Of a DNA stretch of 64,000 nt, positions 2,235 through 37,766 are shown one piece after another. Position 1 is the first letter of the stretch; every line of letters starts with the position of its first letter. The stretch lies in contig BQMF02000818.1 in the NCBI GenBank assembly GCA_027922465.2, positions 27,807-91,806 on the forward strand. The letters are read 5' to 3'. The notes below the pieces were generated by a model. That model made no database searches. It had not been told where the DNA came from and was given only the letters and a program-made list of their open reading frames with translations. Source of the DNA: Turritopsis dohrnii. Its lineage: Eukaryota > Cnidaria > Hydrozoa > Anthoathecata > Oceaniidae. The position numbers and the translations under genes were made by a program.

Positions 2235-3740
2235 ACATCCAAACATTTTACTTATACTTTAACAACTTTATTGCGATTGCATTTGATGGACTTGACAACA
2301 CCAATTTGCCCATTTATAAGTTTGTCAGCAATGTTGATATTAGAAATAAGCATAGCATAACTTCCGCACCAAATTTAAGAATAACCTTTGTTGGAAGGCC
2401 ACCAGTGTCAGTGTGTTTACGGTTAATCGCAACAGCGATTAATCTGTCAAGTACATCTTTTGGCAAATCATCAATGGGCATTGATCACAAATTCCTGACC
2501 TTCCAAACTTTCAAACGTTTTTTGGTTGTAAGCAGTAGGTGGGGCATTTTCTGCAAATAAATGAATTGCTCCTTTTTGGGTAATCTGGAGAGGAATCCGA
2601 AATGAGCGTGATTGAATAAGTGGTTCATCCTCAGGAGATAGTTTAGCAGTGCAAATATTGTTAAGAAGGCCCATGCATATATTGTCACCTTGCTGTCGCA
2701 TTACTTTAGTTAGTTCAGCTATTTTGAAATTACTCCAAAGTTTTAACAAATCCACTGGACATGTACACAGGCTTTCCTATCACTCGAGGTAACTGGAAAA
2801 AAAATCACCAGATGCAATAACAGTTCTACCAGCAAATGGCACATGAGTACTAACCCCAAATATTTCACAAAACTGTAGATGTACATTTTTGAACAGTTCT
2901 TCCGAAACCATCAATATTTCATCAATAATCAACACAGTTCTGAAAGCTTGTTACGTAATGATGGTCGCTAAGTGGAGCATAACTTTTACCATGCATTTCC
3001 AATCCAGAGTAGATTGTGGTACCACCAATATTGACAGCAGCTACACCAGCAGCTACACCAGTAGGCTTTGGTAGCTTTACAAAGTAATTCTTTGAAACGG
3101 CATGATACACTGTTTTCAATAAATGTGATTTACCACAGCCACCTTGGCCAGTTAAAAAATATATAACAGATAAACACTTTTTAACACAGCACTGATCTTG
3201 CATTTGATCAATATTTTTGACCACGTCAAGATGGTGTCAAAGATTTCCCGTTATTTATTATTGAGGGAGCGTATCCTTGTGTTGATTTCATTGTCATTTA
3301 ATACGATTGCCTATCTGGTACAATCCCTGACGTAGGGGTTTGATTTTCATCCTCGATTTCATCGTCAGAAATGTGACCATTCAACCAATCTTGTATTTCC
3401 TCATTTTCCTGCTGTGCAAATGGATCAAAACTGGTTTCAAGATCAGCTTGGTAGGTTCGAAAAGCTTAGTCAACAAGTTCAGCATGTGGCTCAATCTTTC
3501 TTTGTTATTATTTACTTTATCAAGAACACCAGACTGTGAGAGTTTTTCCAAATAAGTATCACATAATTCCTTTTCAGTTCAGAAAGGAAAACACATAAAC
3601 AACAAATAGTGTGCATATTACTACTCGTTAACGGAATGACAGGAAAGTAAAGACTGTTGAAGCCTTCCCCTTCCATCACTTCATCACACATAGTCCGGGA
3701 GCTAGTGGACAGTTTTTTCAACCCATTTGGTGCAAAAGGT
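2235..3740 (-). pseudogene. Helitron helicase half (PIF1-type), degenerate
   Basis: Read on the minus strand from about 3740, pieces in several frames align in order with the region before and including the PIF1-type helicase of large-protein Helitrons. QYAHYLLFMCFPF (about 3630-3590) is followed by EKELC, then IEPHAELVD-stop-AFRTYQADLETSFDPFAQQENEE (3500-3390). Next is the Walker A motif LTGQGGCGKSHLLKTVYH (about 3150-3100), then PTGVAA and NIGGTTIYSGL. Further down are AELTKVMRQQGDN (about 2715) and ILKFGAEVMLISNINIADKLINGQIG (2380-2300), where the C-terminal helicase motifs sit. There are at least two in-frame stops and several frameshifts, so it is dead. The Rep half is missing locally. 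A Rep half in the same orientation and complementary order occurs at 17.15-26.9 kb, so this may be the other end of one element split by later insertions. Confidence 0.8.
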
Positions 3741-3766
3741 TTGACCCTTTAAATAAGTTGTACACA

Positions 3767-3767
3767 T

Positions 3768-3798
<31 letters not shown>
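3767..3798. repeat. (TTTA)n tail of the LINE
   Basis: Eight TTTA units on the plus strand, i.e. (TAAA)n on the LINE strand. This is the simple-sequence 3' tail that marks where the minus-strand LINE ends. Confidence 0.85.
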
Positions 3799-3801
<3 letters not shown>

Positions 3802-4238
3802 AATATTTATACAGGATATTTACATATCAACAAATATGCTGTTTTCCATATGTGTCCTGTAATATAAAACAAAAGAAAATATAAAATGTGAGAAATGAAG
3901 AAGGCAAAAAACTGTGAAAACAAAGGAGTGAAATTGAGAAACTGACAGAACGCTAAAAGCAGCAGGCATTGAAATAGGAAACTCACGAAGTATATCGTTG
4001 ATTACGACGCACAGAAAAGAGGAGACGTCACAGAGAAAAAAGCAAGATCATTATATACTATAATTAATGTATAATGCAAAAAGACACCAAAACATTGTAA
4101 ATTAGTAGTCTTCTTACATCATACAGAAATGTGTTGGAATATATGCATTTAAAATGGTAAAAAATGATAAAAAACAATCAAAAACTCGAACCTAAATTAA
4201 ACATCAGACATATAATACAAAAATTACAAAAATATTAG

Positions 4239-5243
4239 TTATATGAGGTGCTCTTTTAATAACATTGAAAATTTAAAAAATGACTTTTCATTTCTGATAT
4301 ACATAGGAAGTTCATTGTAAATCTTTGCAGCCATGAACCCACAGGACCGCTTTCCGTACTCAGTTCTCAGGGCGGGAAGACGCAACGATATATTGTTGTT
4401 TCTCGTCGCAATGGAGTGGTCAACTTTCTTGAAGTAGTTCTGAAAATTTTCACATATCCTATCAGCAAGGCACTTTCGTACAAATTCACACGCTGTTCTC
4501 TTCCGGAAGCCAAGAATTGTTGGTAGTTTTGAATCGACAGCATTTCCAAGTATACATGCAGCTCTCCTTTCGAATTTTGTATACTTTTTCACTTGTGTTG
4601 ATGTCTGTTTCAATTGTACAAGACTGCAATATCTAAATATCGGAAGGACCATGGCTCTGTAGATAGCATTAGCTGTGTCAATATCCATGCGATGTCGTAA
4701 TCTTGCCAAGAGGTTGAGGCGAGAACTTGCTTTCTTATAACTAGTATCAAACTGGCTGTTTAAGTTCAAGTTACTGTCAATTTTGATACCCAAGTACTTA
4801 TACGAGGTAGTAACATTAACGATACCATACCGATATTTTAATTCGATTTTTCTTGGAAGCTTGGATAACCTTTGAGGTGTACCGAACATCATGACTTCAG
4901 TTTTGTTGGTTTTCATGTTGATTAAAAGTTCGTTATCTGTACACCAGTTACATAAAGCTGTGAAATCTGAAGACAGCTTTGACTCAATTTCATACAAGTC
5001 TTTCCCAGCGTAATAAAGGACGGTGTCGTCCGCGTAGTGTATCAAATTACTATGTGTTATATGATCACCAACATCATTTAGATAAAGCAAAAATAAGAGT
5101 GGACCAAGTAGTGATCCTTGAGGAACACCAGATGAGACAGATAGGGAATCGGAATTTTGACCACCATACACCGCAGATTGCTTTCGGTTAAAAAGGTAGT
5201 CCGAAAACCAGGACAGTTCACTATCCTGTACACCATAGGCTAC
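4239..5243 (-). CDS. LINE reverse transcriptase C-terminal part
   Basis: About 335 open codons. The frame is already open at 5243 with LVAYGV, WFSDYLFNRKQSAVYGGQ, so the true start is lost. RT palm motifs follow in order: SGVPQGSLLGPLLFLLYLND, then the catalytic HYADDTVLYY box, then NELLINMKTNKTEVMMFG and YKYLGIKIDSNL of the thumb, and a typical C-terminal domain of group II-like LINEs (RLRHRMDIDTANAIYRAMVL...). The endonuclease and N-terminal RT are absent through 5' truncation. No internal stop is present, so the insertion is fairly young. An overlapping 60-codon minus-strand frame is a shadow. Confidence 0.88.
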   Translation of the reverse strand, partial: VAYGVQDSELSWFSDYLFNRKQSAVYGGQNSDSLSVSSGVPQGSLLGPLLFLLYLNDVGDHITHSNLIHYADDTVLYYAGKDLYEIESKLSSDFTALCNWCTDNELLINMKTNKTEVMMFGTPQRLSKLPRKIELKYRYGIVNVTTSYKYLGIKIDSNLNLNSQFDTSYKKASSRLNLLARLRHRMDIDTANAIYRAMVLPIFRYCSLVQLKQTSTQVKKYTKFERRAACILGNAVDSKLPTILGFRKRTACEFVRKCLADRICENFQNYFKKVDHSIATRNNNISLRLPALRTEYGKRSCGFMAAKIYNELPMYIRNEKSFFKFSMLLKEHLI

Positions 5244-5248
5244 TAGTT

Positions 5249-6061
5249 GGGTCTAAAATTGGGTCTAAAATTTTATTTGTCAGCTGCTGCGCTTCCGGTG
5301 GGTGTGGCCAGTGCACCAGGTGCAAAATAGTCAAATTTGCAATGAATTATGTCCATCGAGGTGCATGATTAGTTTTTGGTGAAAAAGAACCTTATGAACC
5401 TTACAAATCTGACAAAAAATTTCCGGGGGTAAGGTGGGGTCAGACCCTCCACAAAGCTGCAAAAAAGATACATTAATTTATCCCATCAAGTGCATGCATG
5501 AAATTTTCATGGTGAGTTATCCAGACCTACGTTAGTACGAAAACAATATAACTTACCAAATTTTCCAGGGGTAAGGTGTGGTCAGATTAGCAATTGCTTC
5601 ATTACCCCTAGTAGCATGCATCAATTTAATGTATGAAAATTCAAATAATCATGGACACACGATCGATTATTATTAGCAATTTAGCCAAAGCTTTCATCTT
5701 TTTGTTGCATAAAATTAAAAATGGTTGAGAGAATAAATAGTTTCAGCCATAAAATAAAGTCTTATACAAACGCAGATTAAATGTGACGAGATAGCGACAC
5801 ATAACTTTTCTTCTTTATCGAAGTCTGTCATTCATTTTCATATCTTTAAGTTCCGGTAACAAAACATTCGAATGTTGTAGATTTCACTAAAATAAGTTCA
5901 TTGTAAAATAGAATAAAACATTCGAATTAGAGATTGCAATAATAATAGTTTGAGAAAGTAATAGCTTAAGAGTGTGGTAAAATATTGTCTGGAGAAAATA
6001 CAATGATACGTTAGCTTTGCTTTGTTTAGTGTAGAAAAGTATATGTAAGAAAAGAATAGAT
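5249..6061. other. Non-coding; diverged tandem duplication and an inverted-repeat end
   Basis: No gene seen. Two diverged copies of a unit of about 135 bp lie between about 5345 and 5590. Each ends in TTTCC(A/G)GGGGTAAGGTG(T/G)GGTCAGA (5422-5445 and 5562-5586). The second copy contains the left member of the long-range inverted repeat listed separately. The stretch 5640-6061 is AT-rich and would hold the promoter of the gene that starts at 6062. Confidence 0.6.
5572..5599 (+). repeat. Left member of 28-bp inverted repeat (possible TIR)
   Basis: TAAGGTGTGGTCAGATTAG followed by CAATTGCTT. The reverse complement occurs at 16712-16739, with 27 of 28 bases identical including a 19-base perfect core. 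If the outermost TA is a target duplication, the terminus would be AGGTGTGG. It lies 463 bp upstream of the start of the PIN-like gene. Confidence 0.6.
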
Positions 6062-9000
6062 ATGGAAACAGATTGCGATGGTAGTAAATGTTGTGATGAT
6101 GATGAGCTAGCTTCTTCAAATATTTGTTTAACTGGTGAAAGCATCGAGGAAACCTCACTTCGTAAGTGTTACTTTACTCATTATTCTGTGTGTTTGTTGT
6201 TGTGGTAAATGGTAAATGATTCTTTACAACTTTTGCCTTATTTCTAATCAGCATAATAATGACGTTTCTTTGCATGATAAAAATATTCAATGTCTTGAGG
6301 GTCATAAACTTTTACGACCACTATTATCATGAAGAAAAACGCCATAATTATAATGATCAGAAACGAGGCAAAAGTTGTAAGGATCGAAAGTGACGTAATT
6401 TATGAAAAGGTCTATACAAATTGGGTGTTTCTATATCAATCAGAACTGCAAAATTTTATAAAGTTACGTTCTTTGAGCAGGAGAGGAGGTGTGTCAAGTA
6501 AAACAGACACCATTTCGACTGGTTGAAAGTGAACACATAGATTGATAGCTTCCCTATAACAATTCTTTATTTTTACAGAAAATGAACAACCAAGAAGTTC
6601 TGACAATGTATTAGAAGTATCACAAGGTACCACATTTACATTTATCAATCATACAGCAACAATTAGTATTTACTAGGCGACAATACAAAATCATGTGAAT
6701 CTATTAATGTTTATTTCTGACGAACATATGCATATGTCAATGTTCATTTCTAATGATGTGCATATATCTGAAAGCATGAAAAGGATATTAGAAGAAGGGA
6801 AGTGTGAAGGTGATCTACTATCACCGGCATAAGAAATCTATGTTTGTGATTTTAGTGCTTCATTATAAGGAAGTTTGAATCTTTCTTTGGTGCAACTAAC
6901 AATATTATGATGAATTAGATTATGAGAATTATTTGTACATATTATTGAGATATCTTGTAAATATTAATTTATGTATAAAAAAAAATTGTGTAGATTTTAT
7001 AATACATCCAGTTTTACCTTTGACTTGTGAGAGAGTGCATATTTTCGTCTATATAGGTTGTGCTACCAATTGTGATTACTTTTTTAAAACTAGCTATTCT
7101 ATTTACTTCGTATATTTTTTCGTCTCCTTTTTTTGGCAATATGTTTTTATTTTCTTCTTTTCAGATAATAAGGTATGTTGTTTACATACTGAAAAGGATG
7201 GAGCGACCGATGGGAAAATCACTGTTTTTAAAGATGAAACACTTTTAAAGTGCAGACAGATTCTTACTGCAAGGAAAGAACAAAAGTTGAAATATGCTAA
7301 TGTTACATTACCAAACTTTATATCGTCTGAAAAAGGATTCCATATTGAGTGTTTCAGAAAGTTCACAGCATTATCTAAGCCACAGCGAGAAAAAATGGCT
7401 GCAACACTTGAAAAAGGAGAAGAAGAAGAGAAAGTCACTCGAGTAACCCGTTCTGATGTAGCTCCTTCAACATCTAACAAGAGAACTGGGGTATTTTTGG
7501 CATCTTGTTTATTTTGTGGCAAATACAGAAAGAATCATAATGGTATTGAGCATCCTTTGGTTAACGTTGAAACAGCAAATTTTGAAGAAAATATACGAAG
7601 GTATGCAGAAGCCAAATCGGACGAAAAGATGCTTATAAGGATATCATCATCAAACTTCAGTGCTAAAGAAATCAAATATCATAGTTTATGTCGAAAAACG
7701 TATCAAAAGGAAGCAGAGAGTATAATGAAGGAAGAGACTTGGTTACAAATGGAACTTCTTACTGGCATAGAGAAAGAGATGTTTATGGGAAGACCTTTGA
7801 TGTTATTGCTGCATTCGTGGAAACAAACATAATTGAAAATGAAGAAGTACATTTGTTGGTCAACGTCAACCACCACTATAAGGCTTTAGTTCGTGATATC
7901 GGAGGTCAGGAGTTTGAAGATGCCGAGCCAACTGTGATGAACCTGGAGAGAAAAATCACAAAGCATTTCAAGGCTAGAATTTGTATCGAAAAAGGAGGCA
8001 GCAGACGAGGTAATATTGTTTACAGTTCAAAGCTGACTACCGAACAAGTTATCAGGAAAGAAATTTTGGATGTAAAAATTAGAGATGTTGCATTTTTGAT
8101 AAGAGAAGAAATAATGAAAGCCAAGAAGAGACCTTTACCGGACGATTTGCAAATTAAGGACATATCTGCGGGTGAAGTTCAAACTCCTGAGATGGTTACA
8201 GACTTCTTTAATTATTTGATCGCTGGACCTGATGCAAGGAGTTGGCAAAATATGAGTAAGAAACGGAGAGTACATTCGATCAGTCAAGACGTAATCTTTA
8301 CTGTAACATCTGGCAACAAGAAACCTAATAAACATCTAGAGCTTGGATTAGCCATTACAAGCCTAACTGGAAGCAAGAAAGTCATAGGAATTTTAAACAG
8401 ATTGGGTCATTGTGTGAATTATCATACGGTTGAGGAGTTAGAAACAGAGTTAACATTTACAGCAACAAAAGATGAGTCTACAGTGCCATTTGGAATGGAA
8501 ATTCAGAAAGAAAATAAATCCATTGGAGTTGAGTGGGAGAACTATGATAGATTTGTCAGAACATTGAATGGAAAAGATACATTGCATGATACAGTGGGCA
8601 TAGCTTACCAAGTTGTTTATGGATGTATAAACAGTTCCGAAAATGATGGAGAAGAATCATCAAGTATTCAAAGATCAACTACACAAGAAAATGACCTTTC
8701 TTTGCCAAAAAGATCAAGAAAGCGTAGAAGAATATTCGAAGCTACTGGACTAGATATTACACCATATCGGAAAAAACCTAAGCAATTGTCTTCGTCATTT
8801 TTGCCGAAAGATAGTGCATTCAGAAAAAAGACAGATGATTTGGTGAGAATTGAAGCAGACACATTAAAGAAAGACATGCTTTGGATTATTGACGTGTACA
8901 CAGACCAAGACAGGAAAACACCAATGTGGTCTGGCTGGAATTCGAAGCTTTCGCCAAAACAGAAAGAAGTTCAAAAAGTATGGTATCTACCTCAGCTTAA

Positions 9001-11967
9001 CGAATCGCCTACATCTAATGCTGTTGTCGCAGAAACTATGAATCGTTCTCTTATTGTTGCAGCAAAGAACAACAAGGAATCCATTGCTGTTACCTATGAC
9101 TTAGCAATTGCAAAATTGGCAATGAAGATTCAAATGGAAGATCAACCAAAATACAATAAAGTACTTGTAGCCTTAGGTTCTTTCCATATAGAAATGGCTC
9201 TTCTTAGTGCATATGGTAAATTTGTAGCTGTGTCTAGTGGTCCGTTTATACTCATGGAATGTGACGTGCTTGCAAAAGGTTCCCTACATTCTTTTCAAAT
9301 TGGAAAAAATTACAAGAGGAGTAAGAGGCTGCACGAGTTACTAGCTGCTGCAATGCAATGTCTACATTTTCAAGCTTTCCTTTCAACTGAGCAAGACACA
9401 GAAGATCTTTGTAATGAGCTTCAGCATGAATTTGATATGCTACATAAACATGGAAACATTTCAACATTTACATTTTCTGAAACTTGTGAACAAATATTAA
9501 AACGATATGATGCGTTCTATAAGAAGACCATGCAAGGAGACTTAGGCAAGACAGCTCAATATTGGATCCAATACATTGACATGATGCAGCTCTACCATAA
9601 ATTCAGCCGAAGTATTAGATCTGGTGATTTTGATTTATACGTCAGTTGCCTACCTGAAGTATCTTCCTATTTCTTTGCCTTCAACCATCAGAATTATTCA
9701 AGGTGGACTTTGAAGTATCATGACAATCTTTTAAAGCTACAGCAAACACACCCAGAAGTGTATCAAGAATTTAAACAAGGTAGATTTGGAATTCAAAGAA
9801 CAGCAACAAATTTTTCACGCAACCCAATCGATCTTACACTTGAATAAACAATAAACAGAGATGCTGCTAGACAAGGTGGAGGGATATTTTCAATGACAAA
9901 TTCAATTGCAGCAAGACAAAGATGGGCATACTCACATTTTATCAGAACTAGCGTCATCTCAAGTGTTCTTGACAAGGTAGGGATGATGAAGAAAGATGAC
10001 ATATCACATCAACTAAAATATCACAAGATAAGAAAGGATAATGCTGCTGTGCAAGGTATCATTTGCATGCTGAAAGAAACCATAAACCCTTTCGATGGCG
10101 GAGTTGAAAAATCAAAAGTCTTCAATCTTGGAACAGGAAAGTCGGCTTCGGAAGATACAGAGAAGTTTCTTTTGAATGTGAAAGAAATTGGGATTAATGC
10201 AAGAGAAAGATTTTTGGACGAGTGTTTGGATAACCCAGAGAGATTTGAAAAGCCAATAGCAAGACAGAAGACAAGTACATTTGCAACTGAGGCTGGTCGT
10301 AAAAGGTTATCATCAAAGGATGGGAAAATAATTGCTGCTTGTATGGTTAGAGATGTTTTCGGAAGTTTACTATCATTGTCTTTAGAGAAGAAAGTTGATA
10401 TTGCTGAGGTATTAAAATTCCCTTTGACTCCTGTACCTCTTTCTCTGAGTCATGTTAATGGAATCATGCAGAAAACACCAAAATCATCACTTTTGAAGCA
10501 TTTAGAATCACTTGTTGTAACGGAAGCTCCGATTACAGTTGACGTTACCATTATAGATGCAATGTTCTTCTTACATCTTCAAAAGAATTTACCATCTTCA
10601 TATGGCGCTGTTGCAATGTTTCTGCTGAAGAGAGTAATGGCTAGTAGAGGTAGCACCATCCATCCTTCAATAAAAGATTGTGAACGAGATGCTAGATCTG
10701 CCAATGAAGTCTCTTATTAAGTGAATGGCTCTGCTCAAAAGCGTCCATCAAACTGGCTTGGGGCATTAAGAAATTCTCACTTTAAACAATCTCTCATTGC
10801 TTTTTTGGTAGAAGAGTGGAAACATGAGTCCTACGCTCAAGTATTTCGAAAGAAAACGTTGTATGCAAACAATGGAAATGAATGCTTCAGGTTCAAGGTA
10901 GAAAACAATAAAGTTGAAAGAGTAGAAATGGATTGTTTGTATAACAGTCACGAAGAAGCTGACACGAGAATGCTTTATCATTTAGCAAATGTCGATTCTC
11001 CCTCAAGCATTGTTTTGCGCACTGTAGATACAGATGTCTTGGTAATTTTGCTAGGGTCCAAATATGTATTTGATGATAGAATCAAAATTTGGATGGAGGT
11101 TGGATTACAAACAATACTTTACGACATATAAGCATCAACCAATTACAACAAACTCTGGGAAGCAAAGTTTGCAAAGCCTTACCGGCTTTTCACGCATTTA
11201 CAGGGTGTGATTATACCGCTTCCTTCAGTCGAAAGGGAAAGATAAGACCATTCAAAACCCTGGAGAAAAATGAAGAAATACAGGATGCATTTTATCGAAT
11301 CGGTGTGGAAAGAGAATTACCTGCAAGTGTTTACTTAGAAATGGAAAAGTTTGTTTGTTTAATGTATGGCATGAAGAAAACCACTTCAGTTGATGAGGCT
11401 CGCACACAATTATTTCTAGGCAAGTACAAGCAGAAAGAAGATACTGAAAGATTATCATTTGTAAAAAAACTGGATGCAAGTACGTTACCACCTTGTGCTG
11501 AAGTTCTTCATCAGAAAATCAAAAGAACGCATCTGATTGCAAGACAATGGCTTTCAGCAACATCCTTGTTTCAACCAGTCATGAATCCCTTAGAGTAAGG
11601 ATGGAGTTTAACAGATACTGGCTATCAAATAATTTGGTATGAAGGAGAATCATCGCCAAGAACATTGGATGTAGTGGCTGAAGATGTAGGAGAGCACGAA
11701 GAAATTGAAGAAGGTATCTATTTGAACCATTTCATAGGTGTTTCTTACTTATCTTTGGCTGAAAAGATGCCCAAAGTTTCTAAATTTTAAATATTTGATG
11801 TAGTCAGTTTGGATTGAATCTGGGAGATTAGAAAGCTATGAAGAAACAAAAATGTAATCAAACTTATCTTTTTAGTTGCCGAGGAAGACGTACAGGAAAC
11901 CGAAAGATCTGACACCGATAATGAATATGATACAGATGGTGAAACGAGCACTGATGAAAATAGCTAA
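6062..11967 (+). pseudogene. Four-exon gene for a large protein with zinc-binding N-terminus and PIN/XPG-like C-terminal domain, broken
   Basis: Exons inferred from splice sites with agreeing phases: 6062-6161 (ATG; ends phase 1 at C/GTAAGTG), 6579-6626 (after TTTTTACAG), 7165-11713 (after CTTCTTTTCAG), 11876-11967 (after ATCTTTTTAG, ends in TAA). Joined, about 1,590 codons. Exon 3 starts with a Cys/His segment (VCCLHTEKD...KGFHIECFRKF, then CLFCGK...KYHSLCRKTYQ), probably zinc-binding. The C-terminal half has SHEEADTRMLYHL (about 10950), RTVDTDVLVILLG (about 11025) and ALPAFHAFTGCDYTASF (about 11185); these spaced acidic motifs resemble PIN/XPG-type nuclease folds. A short acidic Asp/Thr tail ends the protein. 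Damage: frameshifts near 7750 and 11100, in-frame stops at 9845, 10718 and 11596. Similar proteins form large families in invertebrates (recollection). Function unknown; the flanking inverted repeats suggest, but do not prove, a transposon. Confidence 0.72.
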
Positions 11968-12136
11968 AACCTCAGAACGTACAATCAATTGATATCATTG
12001 AATAGATATCTTTTATCAAGTACAAATTTGTTATGTGTGTGTACATTCCTTTTCCATTTGTTAAAGTGTTCTCATAATTATCGTAACTACATCATAAATA
12101 ATTTTACGAGCTTACCTTTGGTCTTGCATCAGGTAT
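11968..12136. other. 3' flank of the PIN-like gene
   Basis: About 170 bp of AT-rich sequence between the inferred stop codon and the LINE 3' end. No polyadenylation signal is convincing. Confidence 0.5.
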
Positions 12137-12314
12137 AGTAATTGTTTATTTGCCATTTTAAAGAAGCACATTACAAATCAGCATAAAAGTATGATAATTT
12201 TAATGGCTGGAGACCATACATATAGCCAAAGGCTAGACAAGGGCATGGCCACCAATAATTTAACAGTTGGATCAATAGACTACCATAAACAAGTAAAAAC
12301 TAATTTGCGAAAAA

Positions 12315-15300
12315 TCAATAGTTAATAAAAGTGATGCTTTTGAAGAGTTCGATTAAGTTGTGCTTAGAGATGCTAGATAGGTCTGATTCTGGACAATGCA
12401 ACTGAAACTCATTCCATTGAACAACAGACTGGTAGATAACAGAGTTTAAACCAAATTTAGTGGTATTGCATTTAGGTCTTGATAAGAGTCCCAATAAATT
12501 ACCCCTGGTGTTGTGACAATGTGGATATTTACTTAGATTGTAAGTATTAATTAGAGCTGGAGGTGCAGAGTTAGAGAGTATGTGAAAAGTAGAGATAATG
12601 TTAAGAAGTTTAACTAGATCAGAGAATTTTAGAATTTTAAGATTACGAAATAAAATAGATGAAGGAGAGTTAAATTCAGAGAAGGTAATCAATCTCATAC
12701 TTTGCTTCTGAAGTCTAGAGATTCTAAGGCAAGGTGAGTTTCCCCAAACCTGACAGGCATATCTCATGTGAGTGTCAAAGAATGAAAAATAAACTTGAAG
12801 AAGAATAGATCTTGAGATAAAATGTCGAAGTTTAGAGATGATACCATTTGCTTTCCTTAATTTTACACATAACAATTCAAGGTGTTTTTTCCATGAAAGA
12901 GTGTTATCTAAGTGAACACCAAGATATTTGACTGAGTCATTGAGATCAAGGGGATGACCATTTAGTATAAGCCGTATATTGTAGTTGGGAATCTTATGTG
13001 AGCCATGGAATAATAAGACTTCTGTCTTAGGAACATTCAGAGAGATCTTGTTAGCGCATAACCATTTGAAAAGTCTCCTTAGATCTAAGTTAAGACGTTT
13101 TTCTATAACCTTAAGGGAGGAATTTGAATAAAGAATACAGGTATCATCAGCAAATAAAGTAGCTACACTAAAGATAAGAGAGTTAGGGAGATCATTAATA
13201 TAAATGATAAACAGCAAAGGTCCCAGAACTGATCCTTGAGGAACACCGTGAAAAACTTCCTTAAAATCTGATTTTTTACCATTTAGATACACATACTGTT
13301 TTCTCCCAGTTAAATAAGATTGGATCCAACGCTTACACTTACCTCTGATACCATAGAGTTCAAGTTTGCGTAACAGGATGTTTATGTCAACTGTATCAAA
13401 AGCTTTTCGCAGATCAATGAACACCCCACAAGAAAATAGTCCAGTATCAAGTGATTTTCTGATAGTTTCGGTAAGGGTAATTAAGGTTTGAGTTGTGGAA
13501 TGTGATTTTCTAAATCCAAATTGTCTGTTAAATATTAGGTTGTGTTTAAGAAGAAAGGAATTAAGTCTTGTGTGAACCAATTTTTCAAAAATTTTATCAA
13601 TATTAGAAAGTAGTGAAATAGGCCGATAATTATTCACATCAAGATTAGAACCTTTGTTCTTGAAAACAGGTATTACTTTGACTAATTTAAGAGTGTCTGG
13701 AAATATACCTGTTTCAAAAGTTAGGTTGATTAAAGATGATAAAACACTAGCAAGTTCATTTGGGACACAATCAAAAATTTGTCTTGGAATACTATTGTCA
13801 CCAGTACTTTTGGAATGGTTTAGGGTTTTGAAAGTTTTAAGCATTTCAGCATGAGTTACAGCTCTAAAAAAACAGGAATCAGGTGAAGGATTTCCAATTA
13901 AAAAGTCTTCAAAATTACCAAAGTTTGGAATTTTGTCTTGCAAATTTTGCGCAATAGAGCTAAAATAATCATTAAAAGCACTGGCGACCGTAGTTTGGTC
14001 GTTAACAATATTGTTATTCAAAATCAAGAGAAATATTAGCATTATTTTTATTTTTAGAACTATGGATTATACCATTAATGCCTTTCCAAAGTTTTTTTGA
14101 GTTTTTGATGTTATTTTCGAAGAATGTTTTGTAATACATATTTTTACTAGTTTTTATAAGTTTAACGATAGTGTTACGATAAAATTTATATTTAATGTGT
14201 AGTTCATTTTTTATGTTATTGTTCTTACAATTAATGAATTGTTTTAAAAGAACATCACGTTTAAGTATTGATTTACGTATACCCTTAGTTATCCAAGGTT
14301 TGGTCTTATCAAGGATTTGTTTTTTGGACATCTCTCTTATGGGAGTGAATTGATCTACGAGAAAATTAAGTTTATCAAAGAATAGATCAAAAGAGACATT
14401 TGGATCTTTTGCATCAAGTTTCATGAAGGAATCCCAGTTGATTGATTGAAAATATTTTCTAAATTTTTCAGCATCAAAGTTTTTCCAATCTTTGTAAGTT
14501 TTAGGGATATTATTGGTTTGTTTTTTATTTGATTTATCTAATAGTACAAATTGGGCCAGATGGTCAGAAATGCCTGAAATAAGATTACCTGAGATAGACT
14601 TGTAAGAATGGGGAGAAATAAAAATGTTATCAATCAGTGTCTGTGAGTTATTACTAATCCTAGTAGGTAAATTGATATATGGTAATACAAGAAAGCTACT
14701 TAAAGTGTCAATAAAGTTAGTGACAGAATTTTCACTAGAACTTAATAGATTCAAATTAAAATCACCTAAGAGAACAAGTAACTTACCTTGGCGATTGACA
14801 ATTTCTAAGATGGGAAGAAGAAACTTATTTGTAAATTCAATTGGTGATAAGGCATGATGTCTGTATATTGATCCCACTACAATATTAGGCTTATTTTTTA
14901 CCTGGATTTCAGCAAATGTTGATTCCAATAATTTTGAAGCATACATAATATTCTCAAGATCAGGTCTTCTAAAAGATGTAAGTTTATCGGAAATAAAGAG
15001 AAGGGTGCCACCATGGTTTGCTTCAGTAACAGTGACATGAGATTGATAATTAGAAATTACAGGAAAATAAGGAGAAGTTGATAGAATACATGTTTCACTC
15101 AGCCCTATTACATCAAATTCAAAATTAAGAGAATCAAGAAAAAGTTCTAAACTATCAAGATGTAAATTTAAAGAATTGATGTTTAAATGGAAGAATGAAT
15201 AAGAAGAGGTATTGCAAATAGCTGAATTAGAAATCATAGTTTTAAAGGAAAGTTCATCATAATACTTACAATTTAACGTTTCCAGATTGTCAAAATTTTG

Positions 15301-15576
15301 AGAAGTGTGTTGGGAGGAAAGAGTACTTAAAGACGGGTCAGGTTCAGGTTCAGGTTCAGGTTCAGGTTCAGTATTGAATGGAAAAAGCAGACAGCTACAC
15401 CTATAACAGAACCAGGCCTCACTATCATCTGTTTCAATGAGCTTATTGAAATCACTAGTGCTAAGACGATTACATTTGGGATGAACCCAGTGTTCACAAA
15501 AGTTACAAAAAATAGCATCACTTTTAATTGGTTTATCGCAAATAGAACATGGATCACTATCCACTTCAACAGACAT
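12315..15576 (-). CDS. LINE ORF2: PHD-like finger, endonuclease, reverse transcriptase (one frameshift)
   Basis: Upstream part 15576-14014 (520 codons) and downstream part 14042-12315 (575 codons) differ by one nucleotide near 14020, the only visible lesion in about 1,090 codons. Residues 9-60 form a PHD-like finger (CSICDKPIKSDAIFCNFCEHW...CYRCSC), followed by an (EP)n linker coded by a CAGGTT hexamer repeat at about 15339-15371. The apurinic-type endonuclease follows (FFHLNINSLNLHLDSL, DVIGLSET, LLVLLGDFNLNLL, SGISDHLAQ). After the frameshift comes the reverse transcriptase: NYRPISLLSNIDKIFEKLV, FRKSHSTTQTL, VPQGSVLGPLLFIIYINDLP and the catalytic LFADDTC box, then a CR1/Jockey-type C-terminus (RHFISRSILLQVYFSFFDTH). 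The enzyme nicks target DNA and copies LINE RNA there. A recent indel or sequencing error could explain the shift. Confidence 0.9.
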
Positions 15577-15677
15577 GAAATCAAAATGATAATTGTTTCT
15601 CGAGCCAAAACTTGTAATAAAAAAAAAATAGAATAAAGTATCAAGATGTCTTAAAACAATTAATAGAGAAAAAGAAT

Positions 15678-16595
15678 CTATTCTAAAAGTTCTTTTTGTT
15701 CAGGAAAATTACTAAGAAGGTCGTTAAGATGCGTAATTTTCATGACTTCATCATAGTCAAGAAATCTAATGTAAATTGTACCATTAAAAACCCAGAATGA
15801 ATCGATTAGTTTATTCTGATGGAGAGTTTTAACTTTTCCCCAGAGATAACGATAATAGTTGCAAAGATTGTTATTGATGTAAATTTTGTCGGCAAGATCA
15901 GCTTTTTTATAGATGTCATGAGAACGGAAGTTTTTACCTTTCTTGAGAAGTTTTTCAGCGAATATTCTGTTTACAAATCGAACGATAGTGCGTTTAGGGC
16001 CTTTTTGATTAGGTTTTTTTCGAAGTCGATGACAAGCTTCAATATCATTTGTTGAAATGTTGATATCAACTGCCTTTGCTATTTTGATAACTTTATCTTC
16101 TAAATCCTCATCACCGACTGAGTCTGGTATTCCAACAATCTCTATGTTGTTTCTTCTTATGTATTGCTGAACTTCCGCGGTGTCTCTTTCTACCTCAATA
16201 AATTCCTCATAGTCTGCTTTCTCGTCTTTAAATACTTTCAAATCATGTTGGATTTTTTTAATGATTACATCTTTTTCCGACAGTTCAGATTTCAGTTCCT
16301 TTATTTCAGATTTGAGAGCAGTATTTTCATTTTGCAGTTTTATCAAAAGTTCCTCTTTTACTGTGTCAATCTTAGAATATAAATCTGATTTTATAATCCT
16401 CAATTCATAATAAATCATCTCAAGTGTAATTTCTTGATCATCGTGAATAAAATTATTTATCGAGTCGTGAAATACCTCATTCTCATCAGATGGAATATCT
16501 TCTACAGTATCAGTATCAGTATCTTCTACAGTATCAGCTTTGTCTTCGACAGTATTGACAACATTTCTCTGTGAACTTCTCGTTGATGCTACCAT
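15678..16595 (-). CDS. LINE ORF1 protein (coiled coil plus RRM-like)
   Basis: 305 codons, intact, ATG chosen as the first in frame. Residues 1-60 are acidic with a VEDT(D) repeat. About residues 75-135 are a Lys/Glu/Leu-rich coiled coil (KEELLIKLQNENTALKSEIK), which in this class drives trimerisation. RRNNIEIVGIPDSVGDEDLE at about residue 165 begins the RRM-like nucleic-acid-binding domain, and a basic C-terminal domain follows (ACHRLRKK, RTIVRFVNR). The layout is that of L1-type ORF1p nucleic-acid chaperones, also found in several CR1/L2-like elements. The protein would bind LINE RNA in the cytoplasm. It sits 101 bp upstream of ORF2 on the same transcript. Confidence 0.85.
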   Translation of the reverse strand: MVASTRSSQRNVVNTVEDKADTVEDTDTDTVEDIPSDENEVFHDSINNFIHDDQEITLEMIYYELRIIKSDLYSKIDTVKEELLIKLQNENTALKSEIKELKSELSEKDVIIKKIQHDLKVFKDEKADYEEFIEVERDTAEVQQYIRRNNIEIVGIPDSVGDEDLEDKVIKIAKAVDINISTNDIEACHRLRKKPNQKGPKRTIVRFVNRIFAEKLLKKGKNFRSHDIYKKADLADKIYINNNLCNYYRYLWGKVKTLHQNKLIDSFWVFNGTIYIRFLDYDEVMKITHLNDLLSNFPEQKELLE

Positions 16596-16711
16596 CTTGT
16601 TACAATGTTTGGCTCGAGAAACGCCTACTTTTTACGCGCGAATCAACTTGACACGTCCGTACTTCACGAGGTTCATCTGTTATCAGGTGTATTGCGTATT
16701 TTTTAACTCTA

Positions 16712-16739
16712 AAGCAATTTCTAATCTGACCACACCTTA
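16712..16739 (-). repeat. Right member of 28-bp inverted repeat (possible TIR)
   Basis: Reverse complement of 5572-5599 with one mismatch; the core is CTAATCTGACCACACCTTA at 16721-16739. With the left member it brackets the PIN-like gene and the LINE. No target duplication longer than TA can be seen. Confidence 0.6.
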
Positions 16740-20207: not shown

Positions 20208-23200
20208 ATGAATTCTGATCATGACTATGGCATCCCTCAAAGGTTTGCATTGCCTAGATCACAATTTGATAGAGATGTAGTTGATGCACGGCAACAACAT
20301 CAACAACAACAACCCCCTGCTGATGACCCTCAACAACGTCGTCGCATTAGAAATGCTGAACGACAAAGGAGATACCGTGCAAATCAAAGTGAGATTCGTG
20401 CTCAATTGAGAAGGGAGAGGGATGCACAACTTCAAAGACAGCGACGGGCTAACGAGCAACCTGAGCAAGTTGCTGCTCGACTTGAAGCGCAAGCTCACCG
20501 ACAACAGGCGGTAAGAGATAATGAGCAACCTGATCAAGTAGCTGCTCGACTTGAAGCGCAAGCTCACCGACAACAGGCGTTAAGAGATAATGAGCAACCT
20601 GATCAAGTAGCTGCTCGACTTGAAGAACAAGCCCTCCGACAACAGTCGCTAAGAGATCATGAGCAACCCGAACAAACTGCTGCTCGACGTGCAACTGATG
20701 CTCAACATCACCAACTTCTGAGAAACAATGAGCAACCTAAACAAGCTGCTGCTCGACGTGCAACTGATGCTCAACAACACCTAACAGCATATGTCCGAAA
20801 CAGACGAGTGCGCAGGGCTCGCTTTTTAAATGCTGCACGGATTGATATTGAAAACAATAATTTACCTGACATTCATTCTTTAGGTGAATTTAACATTTTA
20901 TGTGAACATTGTGGAGCAATCAAATTCGACCGTGAAACTAATTTTAAATGTTGCACAAATGGAAAGGTACAACTTCCTAATTTATTAGATTATCCGCCTG
21001 AGTTAAGGAATCTTTTACTTGATGATTCTGCACTGGGTAAACATTTCCGTAAGTGTAAGAGTTTATAATAATGCATTTAGTTTTGCTTCTCTGTCAGCTA
21101 ATCTACGTCCGCCCCCAGGAAATGGTCCTCCATGTTTTAGGATATGTGGACAACTGCTACATAGGTATGGAGCACTGCATCCTAATGAAAACCAAGTGCC
21201 TATGTTTAGCCAACTGTATATTATCGAAGCTGGAGGAAGCTGCCCATGAACGAAACCTCCGTGCGGGTAATATCGTTGTATTGCCATCTACCTTTTCAGG
21301 TTCACCGAGAAATATGCACCAATTGTACCTAGATGCTATGGCATTAGTTTCAAAACAAGGTAAACCAGATTTATTTTTAACTTTTACATGCAATCCTAAA
21401 TGGCCTGAAATTGTTCAAAATCTTTTGCCTGGTCAAACCGCATCAGATAGGCCAGATCTGGTTGCACGAGTATTCAAATTGAAGTTGGAAACTCTTAAAA
21501 ACGATATTATCAAAGATTCTGTTCTAGGTGTGTCTGTAGCACAGGTGGATGTTATAGAATTTCAGAAAAGGGGTCTACCTCATGTGCACATGCTGTTGCA
21601 TCTTGGCAACGAATTTAAGTTGCGCAATGGTGATGACATTGATTCATTGATATCAGCACGAATTCCAAATCGCGATCAAGAACCAGAACTTTATGAAATC
21701 ATCAAATCCTGCATGGTCCATGGTCCATGTGGCCATTTGAATGTGTCTTCACCGTGTATGCAAGATGGTAAGTGCAGCAAAAATTTTCCAAAGCAATTCA
21801 ACAATGGAACTGTTTTAAATGTGGATGGCTATCCTTTATATCACCGACCAGATGACGGAAGAACTGTTCGAATTCAGAATATGGATCTTGACAACAGATG
21901 GATCGTCCCACACAATCCTTTCCTCAGCAAAAAGTACAATGCACATATAAACCTAGAGGCCTGTGTTTCCATTAAAAGTGTCAAGTATTTGTACAAATAC
22001 ATTTACAAAGGACACGATACTGCTCATATTGAAATCAATGAGCGAATAGATCACGACGAAATCAAAACTTTTTTAGATGCGAGGTATGTATCTGCTCCAG
22101 AAGCTGTGTGGCGTTTATGCTCTTTTCCAATGCACACTCAAAGTCATGCAATTTTACGACTTCCTGTTCACCTTCCAAATGAGCAGCAGATTTTTTTCAG
22201 AGAAGGACAGGAACAAGCAGCACTGGAAAGAGGACAAGAGCACACTAAGTTAACTGCTTGGTTCGAATTGAATCGTGTTGACGAACAGGCACGTCAATAT
22301 TTATATCCTGATATCCCCCACCATTATGTGTTTCAAACACGACAACGTAAGTGGGTGACACGTCAGCGTGGAGCAGAAAAAATTGTAAGTAGAATGTACA
22401 ATGCTAGCATTCGGCAGGGTGAAAGGTATTTCTTACGTGTGCTGTTGTTACATGTTCCTGGTGCGACTTCCTTTGAATACCTTAGAACTGTTAATGGGAT
22501 TTTATATAGATCTTTTAGGGAAGCGTGTATTGCACTTGGACTATTGGATGACGATACTTTGTGGATACGAACCATGGAAGAACTTGGCGAATCAGCAACT
22601 CCCTCTAAAATTCGCAAAGCGTTCTCTTTCATTCTGATCCATGGAGAGCCAAGCAATCCAGCTGCGTTGTGGGAAAGATTTCGTGCTCACATGATTGAAG
22701 ATTTTTTGAGACACCAGCCGGAAGTACAAGCAGAGCAGTCAGCTCTTGGAAAAATTCAGGAAGTCCTGCAGCAATTTGGTAGGGTTGTTACTGACTTTGA
22801 TTTACCGGGTTTTGAACAAGCTATTGCTGACAATCTACCAAATGCTGATGAAATGAGGGAAGAGGCCATCAGCATGAGGAACACGTTGAATGTTGACCAA
22901 CTTGCTGTTGCTGATGCAGTCCTAGACGCAGTGGCAACAAACGACAATAATAATGCAAAAGTTTTCTTCCTTGATGGACCCGGTGGAACAGGTAAAACTT
23001 TCACGTACAATTACATCATTCGTGAGGTTATTGGAAGAAACCTATCAGTAAGTACGTGTGCATGGACTGGAATTGCAGCAACACTGTTACAAAATGGTAA
23101 GACAGTCCATTCTCTTTTTAAATTACCTGTTCCTGTATTGGACAATTCAACATGCAATGTCAAGCCTAACAGTAGGCATGCCGATTTCTTATGTAGTCAG

Positions 23201-24274
23201 CATATTTTGATATTTGATGAGGCAAGTATGATTCCTAAGCATGCACTTGAGGCTATTGATAGAATGTTCAGAGATATCTGTAACAGTGATGTGCCTTTTG
23301 CTGGAAAGGTTGTTCTTTTAGGTGGTGATTTTAGACAGACTCTTCCAGTAGTGAAAAGAGGCAGACCAGCTCAGATAGTGGAAGCATGCATCAAGAGCTC
23401 TGTCTTGTGGCCAATAGTGCAAATCTTTCATCTAAATGTCAACATGAGAGCTGCACCTGGAGAAAGGCGATTTGCAGAATTCCTACTTGAATTAGGAAGT
23501 GGAACAATACCGAAAAAAGTGGATGAGCCATTTAAAGACTCCATCGAAATTCCGCACGAATGTGTTGTGCACGAAAATAATGATATTGTCCATTCTATTT
23601 TTAGTGATGCTGGAGGAGAGGATATGTCGAGTCGTGTAATTCTGACACCAACCAATGATGAGGCTTTAGTAATTAATGAACGGATTCTTCAGGGAATGCC
23701 TGGTGAAACAGCCACGTACTTTAGCGTCGATTCTGTTGTTTCTGATGAGCAAGAAGAGATTGACCTGTATCCGATGGAGTTCATCAATTCGCTTACTCCT
23801 TCTGGAATGCCTCCACACCGGTTGAACTTGAAAGTCAACAGTATAGTGATGCTGCTGCGAAATTTATCATTGAAGGACGGTTTATGCAACGGCACCCGAT
23901 TAGTCATCCGTAATCTCCGAGAGAATATCCTTGATTGTGAAGTGCTGACGGGTATCTCCGCTGGAAATCGGGTGCTCATTCCTAGAGTAACATTGTGTCC
24001 CAACGATACCAACCTTCCGTTTCAGCTGAAGCGTACACAATTTCCTCTCCGTTTGTCCTACGCAATAACCATAAACAAAAGTCAAGGTCAGACTTTTGAA
24101 CGGGTTGGTATTTACATGCAAAGGCCTTGCTTCAGTCACGGTCAACTGTATGTTGCATTTTCACGAACACGACGCTTTGAAGCGGTGAAAGTAAAGGTTT
24201 GTAGAACTTTGCAGCAAGGCTATGTTAGAGAGAGATGCTACACTAGAAATGTAGTCTACCAACAGGTATTATGA
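20208..24274 (+). CDS. Helitron replication initiator-helicase (RepHel), two frameshifts
   Basis: Three frames make one protein of about 1,355 residues: 20208-21060, 21060-21240, 21240-24274, each junction a 1-nt shift; the rest is intact. The N-terminus is rich in Gln/Arg with four or five copies of a unit like NEQPDQVAARLEAQAHRQQ (20455-20780). A Cys-His finger follows (NILCEHCGAIKF...CCTNGKVQLP). The Rep domain has YNNAFSFASL, FLTFTCNPKWPEI, FQKRGLPHVHMLLH (HUH histidines, about 21560-21600) and YLYKYIYKGHD with the two catalytic tyrosines (about 21990). The PIF1-like helicase has Walker A FLDGPGGTGKTFTYN (about 22970), IFDEASMIPK (Walker B), LGGDFRQTLPV, and C-terminal LRLSYAITINKSQGQTFERV with YVAFSRTRR. 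The protein would nick, unwind and strand-transfer the element. ATG at 20208 is the first in frame. Confidence 0.9.
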
Positions 24275-26905: not shown

Positions 26906-28112
26906 CCCTTATTATATTCATCGCGCCAAGAAAAACAACGATGATCGTAAAGTATTTCTTGCTACGCAGAAATCCAAAAACGGCCTTTTGTCAACCTAGA
27001 CAAGTTTTTCACAATGAATGTAAAATAGTTTAAGGTTGATTTATCAGAACTAAAGTTAGTACAGTATAATCTAGAAGCAATAGGACAGTCTTTATAAAGT
27101 TTCACCTGTCCAGAAGGAAGAAAAGGAGAATGGTTTTTAGCTTCTGCAATGAAAAGGTTAATTATTATGATTGCGATTAAAAGACTAGTAAAATGGTCAA
27201 AGATTGGATCATACGTGCCAGCTACCGTAAGTCTTCAAACTAGTTTTCTAGTGCTTTTCAGCTCTGCTCAGCTATATCTGTAGGTGAAAGGGTCTCGTGC
27301 TCGGAGTCTTCACCCAAATGCTAGTCTTAAGTAAATGTTGTGGAAATTTCTTGAAGGAAAAAAAAATAAATCACCTTTTTCAAACTTTTCTTCCATAATG
27401 GACTGTAAAAACTGCAGTAAAAAATGCTAAAACCAACATCACCAGGATTTGAATTCCCAGACTAAGGAAAGACGTTTTATGCATTTTGAACATGACTAAA
27501 CAACAGAACTATATTTTTCCTTTTTAATAATGTTACTATAAAAATGTTACTATAAAAATAAAATGTACTTTGAAATTATACTTTGAAAATTGAATAATTG
27601 ATATTATTTGAAAATATACTTTGAAATATAAGAGTTAAAAAAATTGGGGTAAAGACGAATGGATATATTTAACATAAATTATAAATTCTGAATAAAAGGC
27701 CTTCAAAGTAACAAAACCTTGAAGTAACTAAAACCTTGTGAAACTTTTATTTCAAAAGATGCAAATAATGAACATAGTGAACAAAATACAATATGAATAA
27801 ATTAATTTGCTGCAAACAAAAAGATAAAGCAAGCTTTAAAAAATCCAAATGAACAGCCATCTAAGTCAAAAAAGTGACAAAACTTTAAACAAAGATGTAA
27901 GAGCTACCTTGTATAACACTTTTTTCAAAAATCCAAAGTATAAACAAATTGAACAAAATACAACTTTATGTAAATCAATTTCTTGCAGAAACATAAGAGG
28001 TACATTTTAGTAGGTGTTGAAAATATTGACTTTAAAAGTTTATTGCTTTTATAAAACTTTTTGTCATCAAAATATTGGTATTAAAAATAGGCTTAAAGAA
28101 AAGGAATATTGG
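26906..28112. other. AT-rich, no gene; diverged internal duplication
   Basis: Two copies of a unit of about 180 bp are recognisable by AACAAATTGAACAAAATACA-type words near 27775 and 27945, followed by TTTGCTGCA / TTTCTTGCAG. No coding frame with motifs. Confidence 0.5.
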
Positions 28113-36594: not shown

Positions 36595-37766
36595 ATGGCG
36601 ACATTAAGTCATGAAGCTGTAAAATTTATTCAAGAGTGTCTTTACTCTGGCTATGTTTACTCAGATATATTATCGAAAGACAGTTTGGTATCCAGATTAG
36701 TATGAGAACCTTACATAGAGTATTAAGGAAAAACAATATTAGGAAAAGAGGAGTGGATGTGGAAACCTCTGTGGTTTTGGGCATAGTACAGGAACAAATA
36801 GTCCAAGGTAATGGTAACCGAGGCTATCGCAGTATTTATGAACGGTTAAGGAATTCAGGCTTGCCTGTAAAAAGGGATGTAATTGCTCAAGCCCTTAAAG
36901 TAATTGACCCAGATGGGACCGAAAGAAGAACTGCCCATAGGCTTACTGCACGAAGATACATTTCCAAAGGACCGAACTCTGTGTGGCATGTGGACGGTTA
37001 CGATAAACTGAAGCCCTTTGGTTTTTGTATACATGGCGCTATTGATGGCTACAGCCGACGTGTTTTGTGGTTAAAAGTATCTAATAGCAACAATAATCCC
37101 AAGATCATTTGTCATTATTACGCTGAATGCGTATGTGCCCTGGGATTTATCCCGAAAATAGTCCGTGGGGACAGAGGTACAGAAAATGTTAACATCTGCG
37201 AAATGCAGCGATATCTGCGTCGAAATCACACTGATCGGTCAAGTGGATTTTCAAGTTTTCAATATGGCAAGTCAACGGCTAATCAACGTATTGAAGCTTG
37301 GTGGTCCCTTCTAAAGAAAGATTCTGCAAGTCGTTGGATAAATTATTTCAAAGATATGAGAGATGCTGGAATTTACGATAACACTGATCAAATTCATGTT
37401 CAAGCTTTGTTATTTTGCTTCTCGTGGTTTATACAGGCTGAACTACACAGCATTATGAAATATTGGAACAATCATCAAATTAGGAAAAGCAAAAATTCTG
37501 AAGTTCCACATGGACGCCCCGAGATAATGTTTTTTCTTCCTGAAACTTTTGCAGGAGAAAACAATAAACAGCCATATGACGAAAGAGAATTTCAAAGATG
37601 TGTAACAGCGTATACGCAGCAACCTGATGTATTTTCATGTTCCGTTGAATTTGCGAAACTTGCAGCATCACTTATGAAAGAAAACAATTTGCGTTTTCCG
37701 AAAACTATGCGAGAATCACGAGATCTGTATTTTGAGCTTGTAAGTTTGTGTAATAACATAGCTTAA
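36595..37766 (+). CDS. Integrase-core DDE transposase (one frameshift)
   Basis: The ATG at 36595 gives MATLSHEAVKFIQECLYSGY. Near 36670 a 1-nt shift leads to the long frame (IERQFGIQISMRTLHRVLRK, a helix-turn-helix; then RGYRSIYERLRNSGLPVKRD). The catalytic core has VWHVDGYDKLKPFGFCIHGA (first Asp), IDGYSRRVLWLKV, KIVRGDRGTENVN (second Asp) and, 40 residues on, ANQRIEAWWSLL (Glu). The C-terminus (FCFSWFIQAELHSIMKYWNN, EVPHGRPEIMFFLPE) follows the usual pattern of this retroviral-integrase-like family. About 390 residues is normal length. It would cut and join the element ends in the nucleus. All three acidic residues are present, so only the early frameshift visibly disables it. Confidence 0.85.

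Follow-up and report, generated by a model that had tools for sequence, protein, structure and literature searches.

A degenerate DNA transposon in Turritopsis dohrnii, probably of the AcademX type, with a predicted DDE transposase core and FEN/XPG-type nuclease in a single gene

Academ elements have terminal inverted repeats (TIRs), and the X in AcademX stands for XPG, the nuclease of AcademX being of the XPG type. The passage of PMC10045372 that deals with these elements gives target-site duplications of 3 or 4 bp for AcademX, with the nuclease in the adjoining sentence, and duplications of 9-10 bp together with a helicase for AcademH. The corresponding passages on other superfamilies give a duplication of ~8 bp for hAT (PMC3706591), and an accessory nuclease alongside the DDE (Asp-Asp-Glu) transposase for KolobokE, KolobokD and KolobokP (PMC9587614). 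Here we describe a locus within a 64,000-nucleotide stretch of the hydrozoan Turritopsis dohrnii (assembly GCA_027922465.2, contig BQMF02000818.1, forward-strand positions 27,807 to 91,806; hereafter the window, whose numbering we use throughout) that is very probably a degenerate cut-and-paste DNA transposon with long TIRs and one gene coding for both a DDE transposase and a FEN/XPG-type nuclease, most likely a nuclease-bearing Academ element (AcademX). The original prediction for this locus, a PIN/FEN-type nuclease gene and "not a DDE enzyme" between 28-bp inverted repeats, was borne out in its repeat and its nuclease but not in its boundaries nor in its exclusion of a DDE enzyme.

Transposase core and nuclease in one protein

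The gene lies on the plus strand, and positions 8537..9844 are predicted to code for a DDE transposase core of the RNase H-like type, in which a helical insertion precedes the glutamate, based on an AlphaFold model, column counts and structure matches. The model, which covers 8318-10051 (predicted local distance difference test score 86, predicted template modelling score 0.87), is RNase H-like with residues D77, D261 and E509, corresponding to D1 at 8546-8548 (ENYD), D2 at 9098-9100 (TYDLAIAK) and E at 9842-9844 (DLTLE). These columns are nearly invariant in the alignment of relatives (D77 in 47/48, D261 in 51/51 and E509 in 33/33), and Hermes, Transib and foamy virus integrase make up the top 7 of 50 rows of structure matches. 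We dropped the idea that GxFH in relatives marks a lost second catalytic aspartate, as in this model, the second one, strand 4 ends with D261 (TYD), and the triad therefore looks complete.

Further along the same protein, with approximate borders at 10470..11598 (+), is a domain of the FEN1/XPG/EXO1 type, for which structure prediction gives a high-confidence EXO1/FEN1/XPG fold and whose acidic residues (10556-10558, 10955-10957, 10961-10963, 11027-11029, 11033-11035 and 11209-11211) fit the nuclease set by motif and order, in agreement with the original prediction. The motifs EEADTRM, DTDVLV and TGCD on which that prediction drew are indeed present in the window gene, and all seven nuclease positions are acidic in 34 of 36 rows of relatives, two further rows of the 38 being gapped. 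Both domains occur in one chain elsewhere, running from D1 to the nuclease in relatives P0001 and P0036 and from D2 onward in P0003, and a 767-amino-acid open reading frame (ORF) of L010, a sibling copy in the same genome, spans the helical insertion into the nuclease. Upstream of both, the claimed N-terminal Cys/His region could be located by motif positions as two modules (CCLH...HxxC and CxxC...HxxxC) at 7167..7703 (+) that are probably zinc-binding; relatives P0071, P0123, P0127 and P0135 have a visually similar pattern at their N-terminus.

Searches that scored just under 8000 candidates each found 137 relatives of the L010 ORF at E <= 1e-3 and 94 of the first part of the window ORF, in overlapping lists. 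Among the matches listed (for the L010 ORF, the best 120 of 137), sources include Hydractinia, ants and other Hymenoptera, Lepidoptera, beetles, flies, a spider, a limpet and the fish Coilia, as well as one record labelled as a Desulfocapsa metagenome-assembled genome, which is probably contamination. Most of these listed proteins are nameless, "uncharacterized" or similar, and a few carry other names. Relative P0205, a Chrysoperla protein named C2orf42, has a piece of the transposase N-terminal part near its end and is either a fusion or a gene-model error. According to the models, the relatives join a predicted transposase to a nuclease of the repair type in a single chain, and the two active sites are conserved across a hydrozoan, arthropods, a mollusc and a fish (several of the gene models being partial).

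With a small probability, the element falls outside Academ, its DDE transposase and fused FEN/XPG nuclease belonging to another superfamily that may be represented to date only by DUF6589 proteins. The Pfam family DUF6589, which the window ORF matches below cutoff, is the sole family match common to many relatives (17 of the 38 aligned), and its name was not found in the literature searched; against this, the passage of PMC10045372 already describes AcademX with a nuclease and a short duplication. Academ is the best-fitting name rather than a proven membership, and follows the description of AcademX. The element shares with AcademX a DDE/D transposase, an accessory nuclease and TIRs, and the helicase of AcademH was found in none of the eight element ORFs scanned nor in the 38 relatives.

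Much less probable is the original reading, in which a PIN-like nuclease mobilises the element and no DDE enzyme is involved. The confidently predicted nuclease fold and its conserved acids speak for it, but the same protein has a DDE core whose D-D-E residues hardly vary, and we reject mobilisation by the nuclease alone given that this core matches Hermes and Transib.

Terminal repeats and sibling copies

The predicted inverted repeat is present, with arms at 5572-5599 and 16712-16739 that are complementary at 27 of 28 positions. Allowing one variable base and up to 3 mismatches, the 28-mer has exactly two matches in the window, whereas 0/100 shuffles gave two, and a chance origin was rejected on this control. 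These arms had been taken for TA-bounded ends of the element, a candidate we rejected because sibling copies share sequence far beyond them: the left repeat runs outward to 3691 and encloses the TA that borders the left arm, and the arms are merely the inner edge of long TIRs (0.63-0.9 kb). The local tandem duplication that had seemed to weaken the case belongs to the terminal repeat itself, which in sibling L011 has a 299-bp tandem unit.

We searched the genome (436 Mb, 891 contigs) for a 17-base core of the repeat with <=1 mismatch, and found 14 matches, 10 of them exact, the exact ones forming five convergent pairs (window, C235, C355, C461 and C518). Reading the 17-mer backward as a control gave 10 matches vs. 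14, which makes the number of matches by itself weak evidence; strong evidence comes from their pairing and from the sequence that the pairs have in common around them. The one-mismatch matches in C19, C29, C144 and C146 (L015-L018) belong to a different repeat family, all having AGGTGTGGTCAGATTA beside a similar flank (close to CGAGCGTTAT), and were left out of the copy count.

As cut, the two terminal repeats of L011 measure 897 and 730 bp, those of L010 631 and 727 bp, and those of L009 (whose outermost right end is missing) 871 and 741 bp, with 727/897, 508/822 and 719/881 identical columns between the two, respectively. Within a copy, the number of internal repeat units is not the same in both, and the 299-bp unit of L011 is present in 2.1 copies. 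Both L011 ends start TAGTCCGGGAGC and the outer end of the family reads TAGTCCGGGAGCTAGTGGACAG; TAGTCC begins 6 of 7 distinct ends (window, L009, two of L010, two of L011, and L012), the right end of L010 differing in its first bases. Further two-ended copies can be sought with the string GTCCGGGAGCTAGTGGACAG.

In the window, the true left terminus and outer left repeat, starting TAGTCCGGGAGCTAGTGGACAG, were placed at 3691..3767 (+) by the L011 outer repeat and the same start at other sibling ends, with 100% identity to L011 over 78 bp (3690-3767). A LINE (long interspersed nuclear element) fragment then occupies 3768..5256 (-), with a reverse transcriptase ORF at 4239-5252 (RVT_1, E 1.1e-14), and the repeat, uninterrupted at this point in L011, resumes at 5257. 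Its remainder at 5257..5599 (+), which ends in the 5572-5599 arm as its inner edge, is 92.4% identical to L011 repeat positions 80-432 and internally repetitive, as supported by a direct repeat (D5) and an inverted pair (I2). On the right, a second LINE at 12137..16681 (-) is inserted within the element's 3' end; the original prediction had noted it at ~12.1-16.6 kb, and matches to Exo_endo_phos, PHD and RVT_1 agree, as does the element sequence being unbroken across its site in L009, L010, L011 and L013. Beyond it stands the inner end of the right TIR at 16682..16739 (-), which includes the 16712-16739 arm and is 96.6% identical to L011 repeat positions 866-921 over 58 bp. With the right repeat reduced to these 58 bp beside the LINE, its outer part is missing, and the remainder of the window, which stops where the contig does, gave no other match to the repeat on the minus strand. 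A whole element would sum to ~7.9 kb (78 + 6880 + ~922 bp) rather than the ~6.7 kb first proposed.

The siblings represent the same element with internal deletions or rearrangements, and are ~95-98% identical over the longer matched pieces. For instance, L010 corresponds to 5404-6063 plus 9306-12136 and L011 to 5404-5868 plus 8452-12136, while L009:1063-4309 is a fold-back: two head-to-head copies of the element's last part meet at junction 3010/3011, and both arms have a right-type terminal repeat of their own. The C518 copy lacks the equivalent of 8326-10590, carries two insertions, and has an uninterrupted 822-amino-acid frame from which the transposase core is deleted. Short microhomologies (AACATT and ACC) mark the deletion junctions of L011 and L013, with none clear in L010. 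The two insertions make the C518 copy (L012-L013, C518:232500-263400) ~30 kb long: one, at the site matching 6775, is a 1.9-kb element whose inverted ends are of the CCCARTGGGCACGCG type, and the other, ~23 kb at 7150, has Polinton-like virus-type genes (Pox_A32 ATPase, E 2.4e-7, and a weak Capsid_N).

A host gene family between chance inverted repeats is scarcely credible: the arms seemed isolated when taken alone, but the shuffles exclude chance, inner ends are paired at four other loci, and outer ends are common to copies whose flanks are mutually unrelated by eye.

In one copy, L011, the junctions CCGTAA/TAGTCC...GGACTA/TAAGTG give a 3-bp TAA duplication, which could instead be AT if the end is set one base inward. 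L010 is without it, and the L009, C518 and window copies each lack one end. Neither two-ended copy (L010, L011) has the 9-10 bp duplication of AcademH or the ~8-bp duplication of hAT.

Gene structure, decay and neighbouring elements

The predicted four-exon gene at 6062-11967 (+) is present, but stops and frameshifts show it to be a pseudogene. Exon 1 (6062..6161, start codon to GT donor), exon 2 (6579..6626, AG/GT borders) and the last exon (11876..11967, acidic C-terminus and stop) come from sequence reading only, as do the borders of the degenerate main exon (7165..11713), which ORFs and homologs identify as holding the Cys/His region, transposase core and nuclease. Two in-frame TAA codons (9845-9847 and 10718-10720) interrupt the main exon, its frame changes near 7740 and again near 11107, and a 24-bp loss near 10660 takes out one nuclease acid (the second); the window copy is therefore dead.

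The first intron contains, at 6221-6383, an inverted repeat of 60 nt that resembles a small hairpin element, its arms being 82% complementary and 43 nt apart. Elsewhere in the window are a Helitron at 21059-24274, with Helitron_like_N (2.1e-45) and PIF1 (4.1e-57) in one frame, and an integrase-core protein of the rva_4 type (9.1e-36) at 36615-37766, probably another transposon.

A possible role for the nuclease and comparison with known systems

Judging from the alignments, conservation of the nuclease acids in relatives from a hydrozoan to a fish says that the nuclease is in use, though not that it serves transposition. We tentatively suggest, as a possibility on the unlikely side, that this covalently joined and catalytically conserved FEN/XPG nuclease performs a working step of transposition, on 5' flaps, hairpins or the target gap; if true, this step would explain duplications of 3-4 bp in the nuclease-bearing lineage vs. 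9-10 bp in the helicase-bearing one. In the mechanism that goes with the favoured reading, the N-terminal Cys/His region would bind the long iterated repeats, the DDE core would cut the ends and join them to the target, and the nuclease would trim 5' flaps or open branched intermediates from cutting or joining, at the ends or the target gap; the internal deletions of the siblings may represent gap repair broken off after excision. The assignment aids annotation of the family, and poses the question of why a DDE transposase needs its own FEN/XPG nuclease and whether this nuclease sets duplication length.

To our knowledge, the hAT transposase Hermes has no FEN/XPG domain. Duplications of hAT are ~8 bp compared with 3 in L011; the predicted core described here has a hAT-like helical insertion. 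EXO1, FEN1 and XPG share ~15% identity with the nuclease described here, which differs from them in being fused to a transposase. The nucleases of Kolobok elements, in the passage of PMC9587614 that treats them, are lambda-exonuclease-like, DEDDh or His-Me finger enzymes rather than of the FEN/XPG type. At ~7.9 kb, the element is longer than the mean of 5565 bp that the relevant part of PMC10294476 gives for curated bivalve Academ elements. Like AcademX, it is a DDE-class transposon with inverted repeats and a nuclease, and one copy has a probable 3-bp duplication, against 3 or 4 bp in AcademX.
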